Below, in pieces: positions 19,914-25,207 of a stretch of DNA of 64,000 nucleotides. The notes under the pieces were generated by a model. It did not search any database and had not been told where the DNA came from. It was given only the letters and a program-made list of their open reading frames with translations. Position numbers and translations under genes: made by a program. Source of the stretch: Bacteriovorax sp. BAL6_X (lineage in GTDB: Bacteria > Bdellovibrionota > Bacteriovoracia > Bacteriovoracales > Bacteriovoracaceae); assembly GCF_000443995.1 (NCBI RefSeq), contig NZ_AUMC01000010.1, forward strand, positions 186,001 to 250,000, read 5' to 3'. Numbering within the stretch: position 1 is the stretch's first letter; each line of letters starts with the position of its first letter.

Positions 19914-21989
19914 ATGGATGATATCTTTAAGAGATTAAAAGTATTAACAGAAAATTCAGACCTCGCAGTAGCGATCGGTATTCTAGCAGTTCTGGCCGTT
20001 ATGATTATTCCGGTACCACCAGTGGTACTCGATTTACTTTTAGCAATTACACTATCATTCGCAATTATTATTCTATTGGTTTCTGTCTATACTAAGAAAC
20101 CTCTAGATTTCTCAACTTTTCCTGCAGTTCTTCTTGTAACAACATTATTTAGACTCTCTCTTAACGTTGCTTCAACTCGTAACATTCTACTTCGTTCAGG
20201 AAGTGAAGGAACGAGTGCCGCCGGTGAAATCATTCGAAGTTTCGGCGAGTTCGTTGTTGAGGGAAACTTTGTTGTTGGTATCATTGTTTTTATTATTCTG
20301 GTAATTATCAACTTTATGGTAATCACCAAAGGTGCTGGAAGGGTTGCTGAAGTAGGCGCAAGGTTCACACTCGATGCAATGCCTGGTAAGCAGATGGCCA
20401 TTGATGCTGACTTAAATGCTGGTCTGATTAATGATGAAGATGCAAAGAGAAGACGTGCTGAGGTTGCTGAAGAAGCAGATTTTTACGGGTCAATGGATGG
20501 TGCTTCGAAGTTTGTTCGAGGGGATGCTATTGCAGGGATCTTAATTACGGCCATTAATATCATCGGTGGGATAATCGTTGGTGTTGGTCAGTATAAAATG
20601 AGTTTTGGAAGTGCTGCTGAAACATATACTCTTCTAACGGTAGGGGATGGACTTGTTTCACAAATTCCTGCTCTAATTATTTCAACTGCTGCCGGTATTA
20701 TTGCAACAAGAAATACAAGTGAAGATAATCTTGGTGCTCAAATGAGTAAGCAATTTAAGCTTCACCCAAAAGCTGTTCTAATTGCTGGATGTGTACTTCT
20801 AATCTTTGCAATGATTCCAGGTTTGCCTAAACTTCCATTTATCACAGTAGGCCTGGTCCTCGTTTATGTTTCAAATAAAATGGAAAATGAAATTGTTCAA
20901 GAGAAGCTTGCTGCTGAAACAGTTGTTGAAGAGGAAAAGAAATCAACTCCTGAGTCACTAGAAGATCTTCTTAATCTTGAGCTTGTTGAACTTGAGGTAG
21001 GATATGGACTAGTTAATCTAGTGGATTCATCTCAAAATGGTGACCTTCTTGAGCGTATCACTTATATGAGAAAGCAATTTGCACTAGATTGGGGTGTAAT
21101 TATTCCTTCTGTACGAATTAAGGACAATCTTGAGCTTGCTCCTGGTGGATACTCACTAAAGATTAAAGGTGTGGAGGTTGCTCAAGGTGAACTTGTACCA
21201 GATCACTACCTTGCAATGGACCCTGGAAGTGTTATTGAGCCAATTGATGGCATTGAAACAATTGAACCAGTATTTGGCTTACCTGCTGTATGGATTACTG
21301 AAGACCAGAAGGATGATGCCGGATTTAACGGTTATACTGTAGTGGATCTGTCAACTGTTCTAGCAACTCACTTAACTGAGATCTTAAGAACTAATTTACA
21401 TGAGTTATTTGGTCGCCAGGAACTTGTTCGAGTTATGGATAATTTTAAAGAACACTATCCTAAAATTGTTGCTGATCTTGTTCCAGAAATCCTTCCTCTT
21501 GGGGCAGTTTTAAAGGTGTTACAGAACCTTTTAAGGGAAAATGTTTCCATCAGAGACCTACGTACGATCCTAGAGTCTCTTTCTGAACATGGCACAAGAA
21601 TTAAGGATACAGATCTTCTGACTGAAAACGTCAGACAATCGTTATACCGCACTATTACTGAATCTATAAAGTCTGCCAATGGTGATTTGCCGATATTTAC
21701 GTTAGATCGTAAAATAGAAGAACAGGTTGCTGGCAATCTCATACAAACAGAAAATGGTCAACAAGTTTCTTTAGACCCAAGAATTACCCAATCGATTTTG
21801 GCCAGTTTAAATGAGAAAATAGAGGAGGCCACAAACATGGGAGAAAAGATGATTGTTCTTTGCTCACCAGTTATTCGCGGTCACTTTAAGAAATTGACAG
21901 AAAAATTCATACCAAACTTGATTGTAGTAAGTCATAATGAATTAAGTCCGGATGTGAATATTAGGTCACTTGGAACGGTGAGGTTATAG
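19914..21989 (+). CDS. flhA: Flagellar export platform protein FlhA
   Basis: FlhA forms the nonameric ring of the type III export apparatus and uses proton flow for export. The 691 residues match the family length. Seven or eight membrane segments fill the N-terminal 320 residues. The conserved FHIPEP region (SLNVASTRNILLRSG, EIIRSFGEFVVEGN, KGAGRVAEVGARFTLDAMPG and the QMAIDADLNAGLI loop) is intact. The cytoplasmic ring domain follows (GYGLVNLVD, DNLELAPGGYSLKIKG, REVSIRD-type segment). It is 20 bp after flhB and only one base before flhF. Confidence 0.97.
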   Translation: MDDIFKRLKVLTENSDLAVAIGILAVLAVMIIPVPPVVLDLLLAITLSFAIIILLVSVYTKKPLDFSTFPAVLLVTTLFRLSLNVASTRNILLRSGSEGTSAAGEIIRSFGEFVVEGNFVVGIIVFIILVIINFMVITKGAGRVAEVGARFTLDAMPGKQMAIDADLNAGLINDEDAKRRRAEVAEEADFYGSMDGASKFVRGDAIAGILITAINIIGGIIVGVGQYKMSFGSAAETYTLLTVGDGLVSQIPALIISTAAGIIATRNTSEDNLGAQMSKQFKLHPKAVLIAGCVLLIFAMIPGLPKLPFITVGLVLVYVSNKMENEIVQEKLAAETVVEEEKKSTPESLEDLLNLELVELEVGYGLVNLVDSSQNGDLLERITYMRKQFALDWGVIIPSVRIKDNLELAPGGYSLKIKGVEVAQGELVPDHYLAMDPGSVIEPIDGIETIEPVFGLPAVWITEDQKDDAGFNGYTVVDLSTVLATHLTEILRTNLHELFGRQELVRVMDNFKEHYPKIVADLVPEILPLGAVLKVLQNLLRENVSIRDLRTILESLSEHGTRIKDTDLLTENVRQSLYRTITESIKSANGDLPIFTLDRKIEEQVAGNLIQTENGQQVSLDPRITQSILASLNEKIEEATNMGEKMIVLCSPVIRGHFKKLTEKFIPNLIVVSHNELSPDVNIRSLGTVRL

Positions 21990-21990
21990 G

Positions 21991-23460
21991 ATGTACGTGA
22001 GAAAATTTGAAGCAGATTCTTTAGATGAGGCATTAGCGAATATTAAGGCCGAGCTAGGACCTGACGCAATTATTCTTAAGACACAGACTAATAAAGGAAT
22101 TAAAGGCGCTTTTAAAAAGAAGAAAATTGAAATCACTGCTGCAATTTCTGAAAAAAACTACACTAAGAAGGCCAAGGTTGATAACGTTCTTAATCCGGAA
22201 CAAAAAGATTCATTTTATAAAAACAACTCATCTTATATTGCAAATATGATAAATTCACACGATCAAAATACTAATGGACAAGCACAAACTAACTCACTAA
22301 ATGGATATGGAAGTTTAGGCCTTAACCGAAAGGTGAGTGCTGTTGAAGAAAACTCTTCTCAAGCAAACTCTGGACTTGATGATTTTCTAAATTCTATTGA
22401 TCGTGAAGAAGTAAAAAAAGCCGCTGCAAATGCTGAGTCTGAACACTTTAATGATTTTTTAAATGGGGACTTCTCTCTTGAAGAAGAAATTCAGGAAGAA
22501 GTTATTGTTGAAAGACCACAGGTTCAACATGCAAGATCAGTTCAGTCTCAACCTCTTCATGAAACACGTGCAAATAGTGAAGAAGTAAGTGAGTTAATGG
22601 AAACTCAAAGAAATAAAATTGATGAGCTTGAAAAGAAAATATTTGAATTAAGCCAAAGTGTTCAGGTGATGACTAAACCTCAGGCCCTTGGTGTTAAAGA
22701 GATGGTAACAATCTTTAGAAGCTTAGATATCGAAGAAAGATATATTCAAAAGGTTGTACGTAAGGCAAATTTTGAATTATCTGATGAAGAAAAAGAAAAC
22801 CCAGATACAGTTTTCGAATTTGCACTAAAAGAAATGATGGGGGAAGTAAGAACGGCAATGCCACTTTTTTCTTCTGTTGATAATGAAGAGTCTAAAACTG
22901 TAACAGTTCTTATTTCTGATGCTTCATGTGGTCAGAGCTCTATGCTAACAAAGCTTTCTGCTCTTAAGCAGGACTCTGTAATTATTAGAAATAAGGCCAA
23001 CACAGGATTTAAAGATAATACTTCTTTTTCTGAAAAGTTTTTTAATGTTGAATCAAATATCTGTGAATCAATTTCTGAAATCGTTGCTCAAACAAGAAAA
23101 TCAATAGAAACAAAGAAAAATGTTTTTATCGACTACAAGGCAACAAACCAAGAAATCAATGAAATCAAGAAGTTCGTTGATGGATTAAGACGTAGTTTTG
23201 AAAATGTGGAAGTTTTAATCTGTCTATCGGGAATCAATACAGAGTTGTATAATAGAAAAGTACTAAATCGTTATGCAAATATTGCAAATGGTTTAGTGGT
23301 AACACACTTAGATCAATGCTTGAATTATGGGTCACTCTTTAATCTTGCAATTGACTTTAACTCGTTACCTTATAAGTTTTTTGGAACGGGTGAGATTGTT
23401 CCTGATGACCTAGAAGCTGCAACCGCCGAAAGGATTTTGGCCGGTATTTTTAAGCTGTAG
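21991..23460 (+). CDS. flhF: FlhF-type flagellar placement protein with degenerate GTPase motifs
   Basis: FlhF normally is an SRP-type GTPase that sets polar flagellum position. This 489-residue protein has the family N-terminus (YVRKFEADSLDEALANIK, ELGPDAIILKT) and the helical N domain, separated by a long acidic linker (residues about 60-200). The G domain has lost its nucleotide site: where GPTGVGKTTT is expected it reads SDASCGQSSMLTKL, and where the DTAGR loop belongs it reads IDYKATNQ. A THLDQ trace of the TKLD motif and the C-terminal GEIVPDDLEAA remain. Location between flhA and flhG confirms orthology. Binding of GTP is unlikely, so it may act as a scaffold; that is inference. Confidence 0.9.
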   Translation: MYVRKFEADSLDEALANIKAELGPDAIILKTQTNKGIKGAFKKKKIEITAAISEKNYTKKAKVDNVLNPEQKDSFYKNNSSYIANMINSHDQNTNGQAQTNSLNGYGSLGLNRKVSAVEENSSQANSGLDDFLNSIDREEVKKAAANAESEHFNDFLNGDFSLEEEIQEEVIVERPQVQHARSVQSQPLHETRANSEEVSELMETQRNKIDELEKKIFELSQSVQVMTKPQALGVKEMVTIFRSLDIEERYIQKVVRKANFELSDEEKENPDTVFEFALKEMMGEVRTAMPLFSSVDNEESKTVTVLISDASCGQSSMLTKLSALKQDSVIIRNKANTGFKDNTSFSEKFFNVESNICESISEIVAQTRKSIETKKNVFIDYKATNQEINEIKKFVDGLRRSFENVEVLICLSGINTELYNRKVLNRYANIANGLVVTHLDQCLNYGSLFNLAIDFNSLPYKFFGTGEIVPDDLEAATAERILAGIFKL

Positions 23461-23508: not shown

Positions 23509-24405
23509 ATGTCCAGAAACGATCTTTCAACATGGTTGTTGTCACACCGTAGTGATGATAGCTGCGAATTGAATGTTAAAACCCCTCTTAATTACCTTAA
23601 TGAAGAATGTGAAATTATTGCAGTTGGATCAGGTAAAGGCGGTGTAGGGAAGACCACTACTGCTTTAATGATTGCCAACGAACTTAGTACTAAAGGCAAG
23701 AAGGTTCTTTTAATCGATTGCGATTATAACCTTTCAAATACTGCCGTTAAATTAGGACTACCTCTAAACGATAATTTTTACTCCCTTCTTTCACTAGAAA
23801 AATCATTTGATGAATGTCTATACAAACTTGGAAATATACACCTTCTAAGTGGTTGTAATGGTAATAGTGATTTATTCGATACTAGCTTTGAGCACGATAA
23901 ATTTATTATCGATATTATTGCGGCACATAGAAGTGAATATGATCACGTGATTCTAGATTGTCCAGCTGGCGTCAACAAAGAGACGATAAATCTACAGGCG
24001 TACGCTGATTATCGTTTTATGGTTGTTAATCCTGACCGTTCTTCTATCACTGATACATACGCCTTAATTAAAATTCTAAATCAAAAATATCAAATTAAAA
24101 ATAATCACCTCATTGTGAATAGAGTTGATTCAAATCAACAGTATCGAAAAGTAGTGAAATCTCTAGTGGATACTGTTGCTAGCTTTATGCAAGCGAACCT
24201 AAGTGTATTAGGAGGTGTGAAGAATTTAGAAATTCCATCTGACAAATTTGATCACGCTCTTTTGAAAACGGAAAAGAATTCCCTTTCGAAATATTACACT
24301 AATATCATTAATAAATTTACCGACGAGGACAGTACTAGTCGAGTCGCGCCTGCGTTGCTGAAGGGATTCAGTCGTGCTGGTAGTAACCCACAGCAACTAG
24401 CTTAA
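23509..24405 (+). CDS. flhG: FlhG (FleN/YlxH) MinD-like ATPase
   Basis: FlhG is the MinD-type ATPase that limits flagellar number, usually by stimulating FlhF GTPase. The 298 residues carry an intact deviant Walker A (GSGKGGVGKTTTALMIANEL), the LIDCDYNLSN switch and the VILDCPAGVN segment. An N-terminal region of about 35 residues, where the FlhF-activating sequence lies in other species, precedes the Walker A. So the ATPase is kept though its partner FlhF has lost GTPase motifs. It follows flhF by 48 bp with GGAG upstream. Confidence 0.93.
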   Translation: MSRNDLSTWLLSHRSDDSCELNVKTPLNYLNEECEIIAVGSGKGGVGKTTTALMIANELSTKGKKVLLIDCDYNLSNTAVKLGLPLNDNFYSLLSLEKSFDECLYKLGNIHLLSGCNGNSDLFDTSFEHDKFIIDIIAAHRSEYDHVILDCPAGVNKETINLQAYADYRFMVVNPDRSSITDTYALIKILNQKYQIKNNHLIVNRVDSNQQYRKVVKSLVDTVASFMQANLSVLGGVKNLEIPSDKFDHALLKTEKNSLSKYYTNIINKFTDEDSTSRVAPALLKGFSRAGSNPQQLA

Positions 24406-24421
24406 TCAAGGAGTGAGAGAG

Positions 24422-25207
24422 ATGTCATCGTTGGCCAAAAAGTTAAAGAATTTAAAAGATTATAGATCAACTGTAGATCCAAAAGTAAAAGATGAGATCG
24501 TAGTAGAATACGCTCCATTAATTAAGTATATTGCACAAAAAATTGCATCACGCCTACCATCAAATATTGAATTAGATGATCTAATTTCATGTGGTGTTAT
24601 TGGACTAATGGATGCAATTGAAAAATTTGATCCTTCACGTGATAATAAATTTAAAACTTATGCAGAATTTAGAATTAGAGGAGCAATCTTAGATGAACTT
24701 CGTTCTCAAGACTGGGTACCTCGTTCTGTAAGAGAGAAGGCAAAGTTAATTGATCGTGCATATTCAAAGTTGGAATCTGAACTTGGCCGTCCAGCAACTG
24801 ATGATGAAATGTGTAAAGAACTAGAGTGTTCTAAAGAAGAATTTCACACGATGCTAAATAAAGCAAAATCAGTCTCTATCCTTAACATTGATGACTCAGC
24901 GACATTTAATCGCAATGATAAGCGTGCAATGGCCGGACTAAATGAAGACAGTAAAGCAATGAATCCATTTACTGCTGTTTCAAATAAAAACTTCAGAGAC
25001 AAAATTAAAGAGGGAATCGAACAACTTCCAGAAAAGCAGAGACTTGTTCTTTCTCTATACTACTACGAAGACTTAAACCTTAAGGAAATTGGTCAGGTAC
25101 TAGATGTAACGGAGTCACGTGTTTCTCAATTACATACTCAAGCTGTAATGAAGCTTAAAGCTAAGCTGCAAAATATGTTTGAAGGTTATGAAGAACTAGT
25201 TAGTTAA
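24422..25207 (+). CDS. fliA: RNA polymerase sigma28 factor FliA
   Basis: FliA directs transcription of late flagellar and motility genes. The ATG at 24422 is chosen over the GTG at 24413 because AAGGAG (24408-24413) sits 8 bases before it. The 261 residues show region 2 (ELDDLISCGVIGLMDAIEKF, KFKTYAEFRIRGAILDELRS, DWVPRSVREKAK), region 3 and region 4 (LPEKQRLVLSLYYYEDLNLK, then LDVTESRVSQLHTQAVMKL). These are the standard FliA motifs. It is the last gene of the operon, before a terminator. Its targets should carry TAAA-N15-GCCGATAA-like promoters; one candidate lies at 25369. Confidence 0.96.
   Translation: MSSLAKKLKNLKDYRSTVDPKVKDEIVVEYAPLIKYIAQKIASRLPSNIELDDLISCGVIGLMDAIEKFDPSRDNKFKTYAEFRIRGAILDELRSQDWVPRSVREKAKLIDRAYSKLESELGRPATDDEMCKELECSKEEFHTMLNKAKSVSILNIDDSATFNRNDKRAMAGLNEDSKAMNPFTAVSNKNFRDKIKEGIEQLPEKQRLVLSLYYYEDLNLKEIGQVLDVTESRVSQLHTQAVMKLKAKLQNMFEGYEELVS

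Follow-up and report, generated by a model that had tools for sequence, protein, structure and literature searches.

FlhF proteins of Bacteriovoracaceae are probably pseudo-GTPase orthologues that act as polar flagellar tethers without FlhG-stimulated hydrolysis. They have a predicted GTPase fold, lack catalytic residues of the G motifs and are under selection, the combination by which a pseudo-GTPase is recognised. FlhF and FlhG are described as a GTPase switch and its activator, and the share of the GTP cycle that is needed for polar placement is still argued. Bacteriovoracaceae appear to be a natural experiment, in which the activator motif was removed along with the catalytic site while the tether was kept, and they are a system to separate the scaffold role of FlhF from its switch role. 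A switch that is regarded as GTP-driven seems to have been remodelled so that GTP is no longer needed. A literature search found no description of FlhF in Bacteriovoracaceae and no SRP-family pseudo-GTPase.

The stimulation of FlhF by FlhG is exerted by the Gln of an N-terminal DQAxxLR motif (PMC12826062). In Shewanella, the FliG-interaction domain (FID) of FlhF binds FliG, the NG domain binds the landmark HubP whatever the nucleotide state, and it is proposed that FlhG-stimulated hydrolysis frees FlhF, after which FliM/FliN join (PMC11236974). GTP binding is important to the FlhF-FliG complex in P. aeruginosa (PMC12713375). In Vibrio alginolyticus, FlhF R334A has no GTPase activity and flagella are normal, T306A and D439A abolish flagella, and G299A, K305A, D377A and K437A give fewer flagella that are still made, some of them still polar in K305A, which is partly functional (PMC6092412). 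Cultured strains such as Halobacteriovorax are reported to have a single polar flagellum (PMC5760749, PMC12724312).

The window is a stretch of 64,000 nucleotides from Bacteriovorax sp. BAL6_X that has the gene order flhA-flhF-flhG-fliA (Table 1), with FliL, FliM, FliN, FliO and FliP encoded upstream of flhF; FliG and FliM/FliN are present in the genome. Open reading frame coordinates and profile matches agree with the place of flhF between flhA and flhG that was given by an earlier, sequence-only reading, and the TIGR03499 match, which begins at profile position 1, supports the N-terminal FlhF domain that it had recognised. This match is weak, with 56.9 bits, and does not reach the curated cut-off of 174.15; no genome of Bacteriovoracaceae reached a score like that of canonical FlhF, and the Pfam SRP54 model (PF00448) gave no match to the window FlhF even at E=1. 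An SRP54 search of the genome recovered Ffh, FtsY and one weak match over 38 profile positions, and no second FlhF. The fliA-type frame is listed from a GTG at 24413, and the ATG at 24422, which is located 3' of an AAGGAG site, fits the relatives better; AAGGAG..ATGTC is conserved at the fliA start among them.

Table 1. Features of the flhF-flhG locus, in window coordinates.
Feature	Position	Strand	Evidence or remark
flhA (context)	19914..21989	+	PF00771 E=8.7e-273
flhF orthologue, 489 aa, P-loop Lys replaced by Gln	21991..23460	+	open throughout
FID homologue, residues 1-55	21991..22155	+	TIGR03499 from position 1
Linker short motif LDDFLN, residues 129-134, family-specific	22375..22392	+	
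SRP-type NG domain, residues 232-489	22684..23457	+	structure match of model
G1/P-loop position, S309-DASCGQSS-317 replacing GPTGVGKTT	22915..22941	+	
G2 position, DTYR lost, variable-length loop	22990..23043	+	
G3 position, DYKAT replacing DTAGR; Asp kept, new basic residue 383	23131..23145	+	
Closing-loop position, S-x-I-x-x-E-x-Y-N-R/K-K, residues 413-424, family-specific	23227..23262	+	
G4 position, THLDQC replacing TKLDE; Asp kept, Lys/Glu lost, new Cys443	23302..23319	+	
G5 position, GTGEIVPDDLE, kept	23383..23415	+	
flhG, MinD/ParA-type ATPase, 298 aa	23509..24405	+	AAA_31 3.6e-23
FlhG N-terminal helix, residues 3-12, RNDLSTWLLS, replacing DQAxxLR enhancer helix	23515..23544	+	
FlhG deviant Walker A SGKGGVGKTTT	23629..23661	+	
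fliA-type sigma factor (context)	24422..25207	+	Sigma70 regions 2-4

The gene order, the FID and the NG fold identify the window gene as an FlhF orthologue, and FlhF from Vibrio, Shewanella, Bacillus and Campylobacter has the same gene order, N-terminal FID, linker and NG fold. The FID is modelled as beta-alpha-beta-beta with pLDDT above 80, gives a weak phmmer match to the FlhF FID structure 9en1 (E 0.87) and is the best-conserved part of FlhF in the family, with a mean top-residue frequency of 0.81. The structure model of FlhF, which was built from 59 sequences, has a mean pLDDT of 82.9; the value exceeds 90 in most blocks of the NG domain and drops to the 70s in loop blocks. It matches the FlhF-GDP structure 8r9r (Z 24.2, rmsd 2.8, 242 residues aligned) and the FlhF-GTP structure 2px3 (Z 23.9), and FtsY is also matched. 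Modelling of the G domain, which had been proposed as a check, thus recovers an SRP-type NG fold at Z 24, and this fold is predicted to be intact. The otherwise variable linker of the family FlhF has a (S/G)LDDFLS motif, and an element of the type [DENSQ]F[LIMV] is found in 48/53 family members, sometimes twice; this element is possibly a binding peptide.

Residues 309-322 of the window FlhF read SDASCGQSSMLTKL, and an intact GxxxxGK[ST], which was looked for both in alignment with the P-loop and anywhere else in the translation, is absent. A P-loop without GxxxxGK, as first read from the letters, is therefore borne out. Chance does not explain it, since the family has S309 and Q315 fixed or almost fixed and both are absent elsewhere. 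Residues 380-387 read IDYKATNQ at the DTAGR position, as had been noted; Gly and Arg are gone there, but the Asp is not lost (D381). In the window FlhF the G4 Lys is replaced by His, and D381 (G3), D441 (G4), S316, G467, D473 and G5 are retained. With residues numbered as in FlhF of V. alginolyticus, the family has lost G299, G302, K305, D331/R334 (G2), G380, R381, K437 and E440, and keeps G304, T306 (as Ser/Thr), K311, D377, D439, G464, P468 and D470. The nucleotide site is gutted rather than absent, since the G3 and G4 Asp, S316 and G5 remain.

In comparison to canonical FlhF, the family FlhF has Gln for the P-loop Lys, has lost G2, Gly/Arg of G3 and Lys/Glu of G4, and has new invariant residues. 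The near-invariant residues that are specific to the family are T305, S309, an acidic residue at 310, Q315, a basic residue at 383, E418, Y420, N421, K423 and C443; by alignment they cluster around the old pocket, and residues 413-424 correspond in the alignment to DAxTGQ, the closing loop of Ffh and FtsY. The pocket is rebuilt and not rotting. A passive landmark, which the sequence-only reading had offered as one outcome, is not implied by these residues, which speak for a role that is active and was rebuilt.

FlhF homologues were gathered from the genus of the window and from its family, of which Halobacteriovorax is presumably a member. The first alignment had 34 FlhF from the family and 61 from other phyla: all 34 family sequences carry Gln at position 315 and Ser at position 309, where all 61 others carry Lys and Gly, respectively. 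Twenty further family genomes, with the most divergent included (24-37% identity), were added to give 54 sequences, one being a duplicate. The P-loop Gln is present in all 53 distinct family FlhF, which represent about 45 genera, while the P-loop Lys is kept in 49/49 sampled FlhF from other families of the same phylum, Bdellovibrionota. The proposed check by alignment thus finds the loss of the P-loop Lys conserved within Bacteriovoracaceae (53/53), which rules out an accident in the lineage of a single genome. A sequencing, assembly or alignment artefact has practically no chance of explaining a Gln found in 53/53 sequences from independent genomes; the P-loop alignment is held in register by the strand and helix beside the P-loop and by K321, which is invariant.

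When the motif columns are left out, the FlhF tree resolves the family as a single clade with support of 100 and the P-loop state changes once, so the replacement is one derived event in the family ancestor. With 1.41 changes per column, the branch leading to the family is long, and the identity of its neighbour is uncertain. Gln315 is encoded by CAA in 39 and by CAG in 15 sequences, and Ser309 by both TCN and AGY codons. One close pair has, in the G domain of FlhF, a dN of 0.046 and a dS of 0.86 (dN/dS about 0.05); in other pairs dS is saturated or nearly so and dN is low too. The P-loop change is under purifying selection, as indicated by the variety of synonymous codons and the low dN. The statement that the gene is not in simple decay holds, given Gln in 53/53 and this dN/dS.

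FlhG of the family, like FlhG/FleN/YlxH and MinD, has a deviant Walker A and a MinD-type fold, and the model of the window FlhG has pLDDT 86 and pTM 0.86. The switch aspartates are kept along with the Walker A. The earlier statement of a retained FlhG ATPase site holds for this core, but FlhG is altered too: DQAxxLR is missing from 34/34 family FlhG and from 45/45 in a partly overlapping set. The family FlhG, as judged from the sequences, has a conserved WLxS helix instead, which is new here; an x5-W-L-x-S element occupies the place of DQAxxLR in 42/45 and is predicted to be helical in the window FlhG. The Leu of WLxS aligns onto the Leu of DQAxxLR, whereas Gln and Arg are gone, and the helix may still dock on FlhF. 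A basic amphipathic membrane helix at the C-terminus is not recognisable in family FlhG, either by eye or by a helical-moment score. The family proteins differ from FlhG/FleN/YlxH and MinD in having neither DQAxxLR nor a recognisable C-terminal membrane helix, and in having WLxS and often E[QH][ED]V. An E[QH][ED]V[QHR]-like motif is located a few residues from the stop in 27/45 (for example L005, L008, L021, L022, L034 and L182), and the window FlhG ends in NPQQLA. The possibility that the EQ[ED]V motif reflects an overlapping Shine-Dalgarno sequence is rejected, as the AAGGAG of fliA falls 3' of the stop codon.

FlhG-stimulated hydrolysis is very unlikely, since the P-loop Lys, Asp/Arg of G2, Gly/Arg of G3 and the DQAxxLR of FlhG are all gone, and there is a strong case that family FlhF does not hydrolyse GTP at all. 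The R334A and K305A mutants of V. alginolyticus are altered at the same positions as the family FlhF, in which these changes arose in nature, occur together and are fixed throughout the family. The loss of hydrolysis alone is no paradox, because R334A is GTPase-dead and has normal flagella (PMC6092412). The earlier claim that the polar pathway must work without hydrolysis is then sound with respect to FlhG-stimulated hydrolysis, and is too strong when presented as a paradox. Similarly, the GTPase site is lost for catalysis, with residues of G1 to G4 gone, but loss of binding is not implied, as the equivalents of T306 and D439 are kept. The family keeps these two positions, which are null when mutated in Vibrio, and drops several tolerated ones, a pattern that favours a loss of hydrolysis and would still allow binding; a Gln at the Lys position need not abolish binding either, given the partial function of K305A (PMC6092412). 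A moderate case can be made for no or weak nucleotide binding. Against it, G5, both Asp residues (G3 and G4) and the Ser/Thr of the P-loop are nearly invariant, as would be expected if guanine nucleotide were still bound, and the role of GTP binding in P. aeruginosa (PMC12713375) is a further contrary point.

In the pseudo-GTPase explanation, the half of the pocket that is responsible for phosphate binding and catalysis would have been swapped once, in the family ancestor, for a new fixed arrangement, formed by a P-loop S-[D/E]-x-x-x-G-Q-[S/T], a G3 D-x-[K/R], a closing loop E-x-Y-N-[R/K]-K and a G4 xHLDxC. FlhF would hold the nascent C-ring at the pole in a conformation that is not set by GTP hydrolysis. 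FlhG would exert control through its own ATP cycle and through the re-purposed N-terminal WLxS helix, which would dock on FlhF and be unable to catalyse, and timing could come from the FlhG ATP cycle, from the new FlhG helix or from C-ring proteins. The tether role and the helix docking are proposed by analogy to the Shewanella and Vibrio models. Searches of the genome for HubP/FimV (TIGR03505) and FipA-type (PF10975) proteins gave no match, and their controls were silent too. A FleQ receiver domain was not found in a search whose control worked.

It is quite possible, with a likelihood somewhat short of even, that the nucleotide has been replaced by protein, with D/E310 pairing with K/R383 and Gln315 and FlhF being permanently nucleotide-free and ready. 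Stability in the absence of nucleotide is an unusual property of SRP GTPases, so an empty-pocket FlhF would be an easy step. An acidic 310 covaries with a basic 383 as the best of 62 positions (raw p 4e-4), with only 2 independent pairs and no significance on the tree.

Less likely, although a sharper form of the pseudo-GTPase explanation and not its opposite, is a shift of labour, in which FlhF would be the passive partner, the switch would lie wholly in FlhG, driven by ATP, and the WLxS helix would lock FlhF. This agrees with the retained Walker A, switch aspartates and fold of FlhG and with the exchange of DQAxxLR for WLxS (42/45), but the unrecognisable C-terminal membrane helix implies that the FlhG cycle may itself have changed.

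A tight binding of guanine nucleotide that is never hydrolysed, as in class II/III pseudo-GTPases such as several septins, would be less probable still. The nucleotide would then be a structural cofactor of a constitutive dimer, and Gln and K/R383 would replace the Walker Lys. Ser/Thr316, D381, D441, G467 and D473 are retained, residue 383 is basic in 45/53 family FlhF and 0/61 others, and the family keeps the positions of T306 and D439 and loses those of G299, K305 and K437, which are tolerated in Vibrio (PMC6092412). These same residues could persist for reasons of fold or dimer, however, and K/R383 is not universal, being N, D or E in 8/53. The acidic D/E310 of the P-loop (46/53) and the mostly larger residues at the Gly302 position are both unfavourable to phosphate. 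Septin pseudo-GTPases also assemble over nucleotide, having lost hydrolysis by substitutions in the pocket (PMC10731463), but they are eukaryotic, polymer-forming and of an unrelated subfamily, and the family FlhF could fall into any of the three classes, no binding, GTP-locked or GDP-locked.

It is very improbable that FlhF is a nearly functionless relic, kept for the FID only, with an NG domain that is a spacer drifting to loss: shortened FlhF (348-376 aa) without an adjoining downstream flhG in some members and the few family genomes without any FlhF match would fit, but the G domain is strongly constrained (dN 0.046, dS 0.86), the family-specific invariants are concentrated at the old pocket and most of the NG domain is predicted with a pLDDT above 90.

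Outside the family, the Bdellovibrio-type pair, found in other families of the same phylum, has an FlhG without DQAxxLR and an FlhF in which the G3 Arg and, in many cases, the G4 Lys are missing; its intact P-loop, GxxGxGKT, distinguishes this FlhF from that of Bacteriovoracaceae. These states are found in L136, L139, L141-L143, L152, L153 and other Bdellovibrionota that are not Bacteriovoracaceae, and the loss of FlhG-stimulated hydrolysis may extend further across the phylum. It is suggestive of an order of events in which the activator eroded first and the P-loop later. The losses of FlhF G3/G4 residues are associated with that of DQAxxLR at a raw Fisher p of about 1e-8, which comes down to only 4-5 independent pairs on supported branches and a non-significant sign test when paired on the tree, so a coupled loss is only suggestive.

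Another simplified FlhF/FlhG pair is found in L144-L147 and L163 (family code f3), which have an FlhF of about 370 aa with a P-loop and a diverged G5, and an FlhG without the N-terminal extension. Two Bacteriovoracaceae genomes (G030 and G032; 99% and 91% complete; 2.3 and 1.6 Mb) have zero FlhF matches and are possibly non-flagellate lineages. In L167-L169 (genus code g54), FlhF is short, with 348-376 aa, no flhG is located immediately 3' of it and the P-loop Gln is still there.
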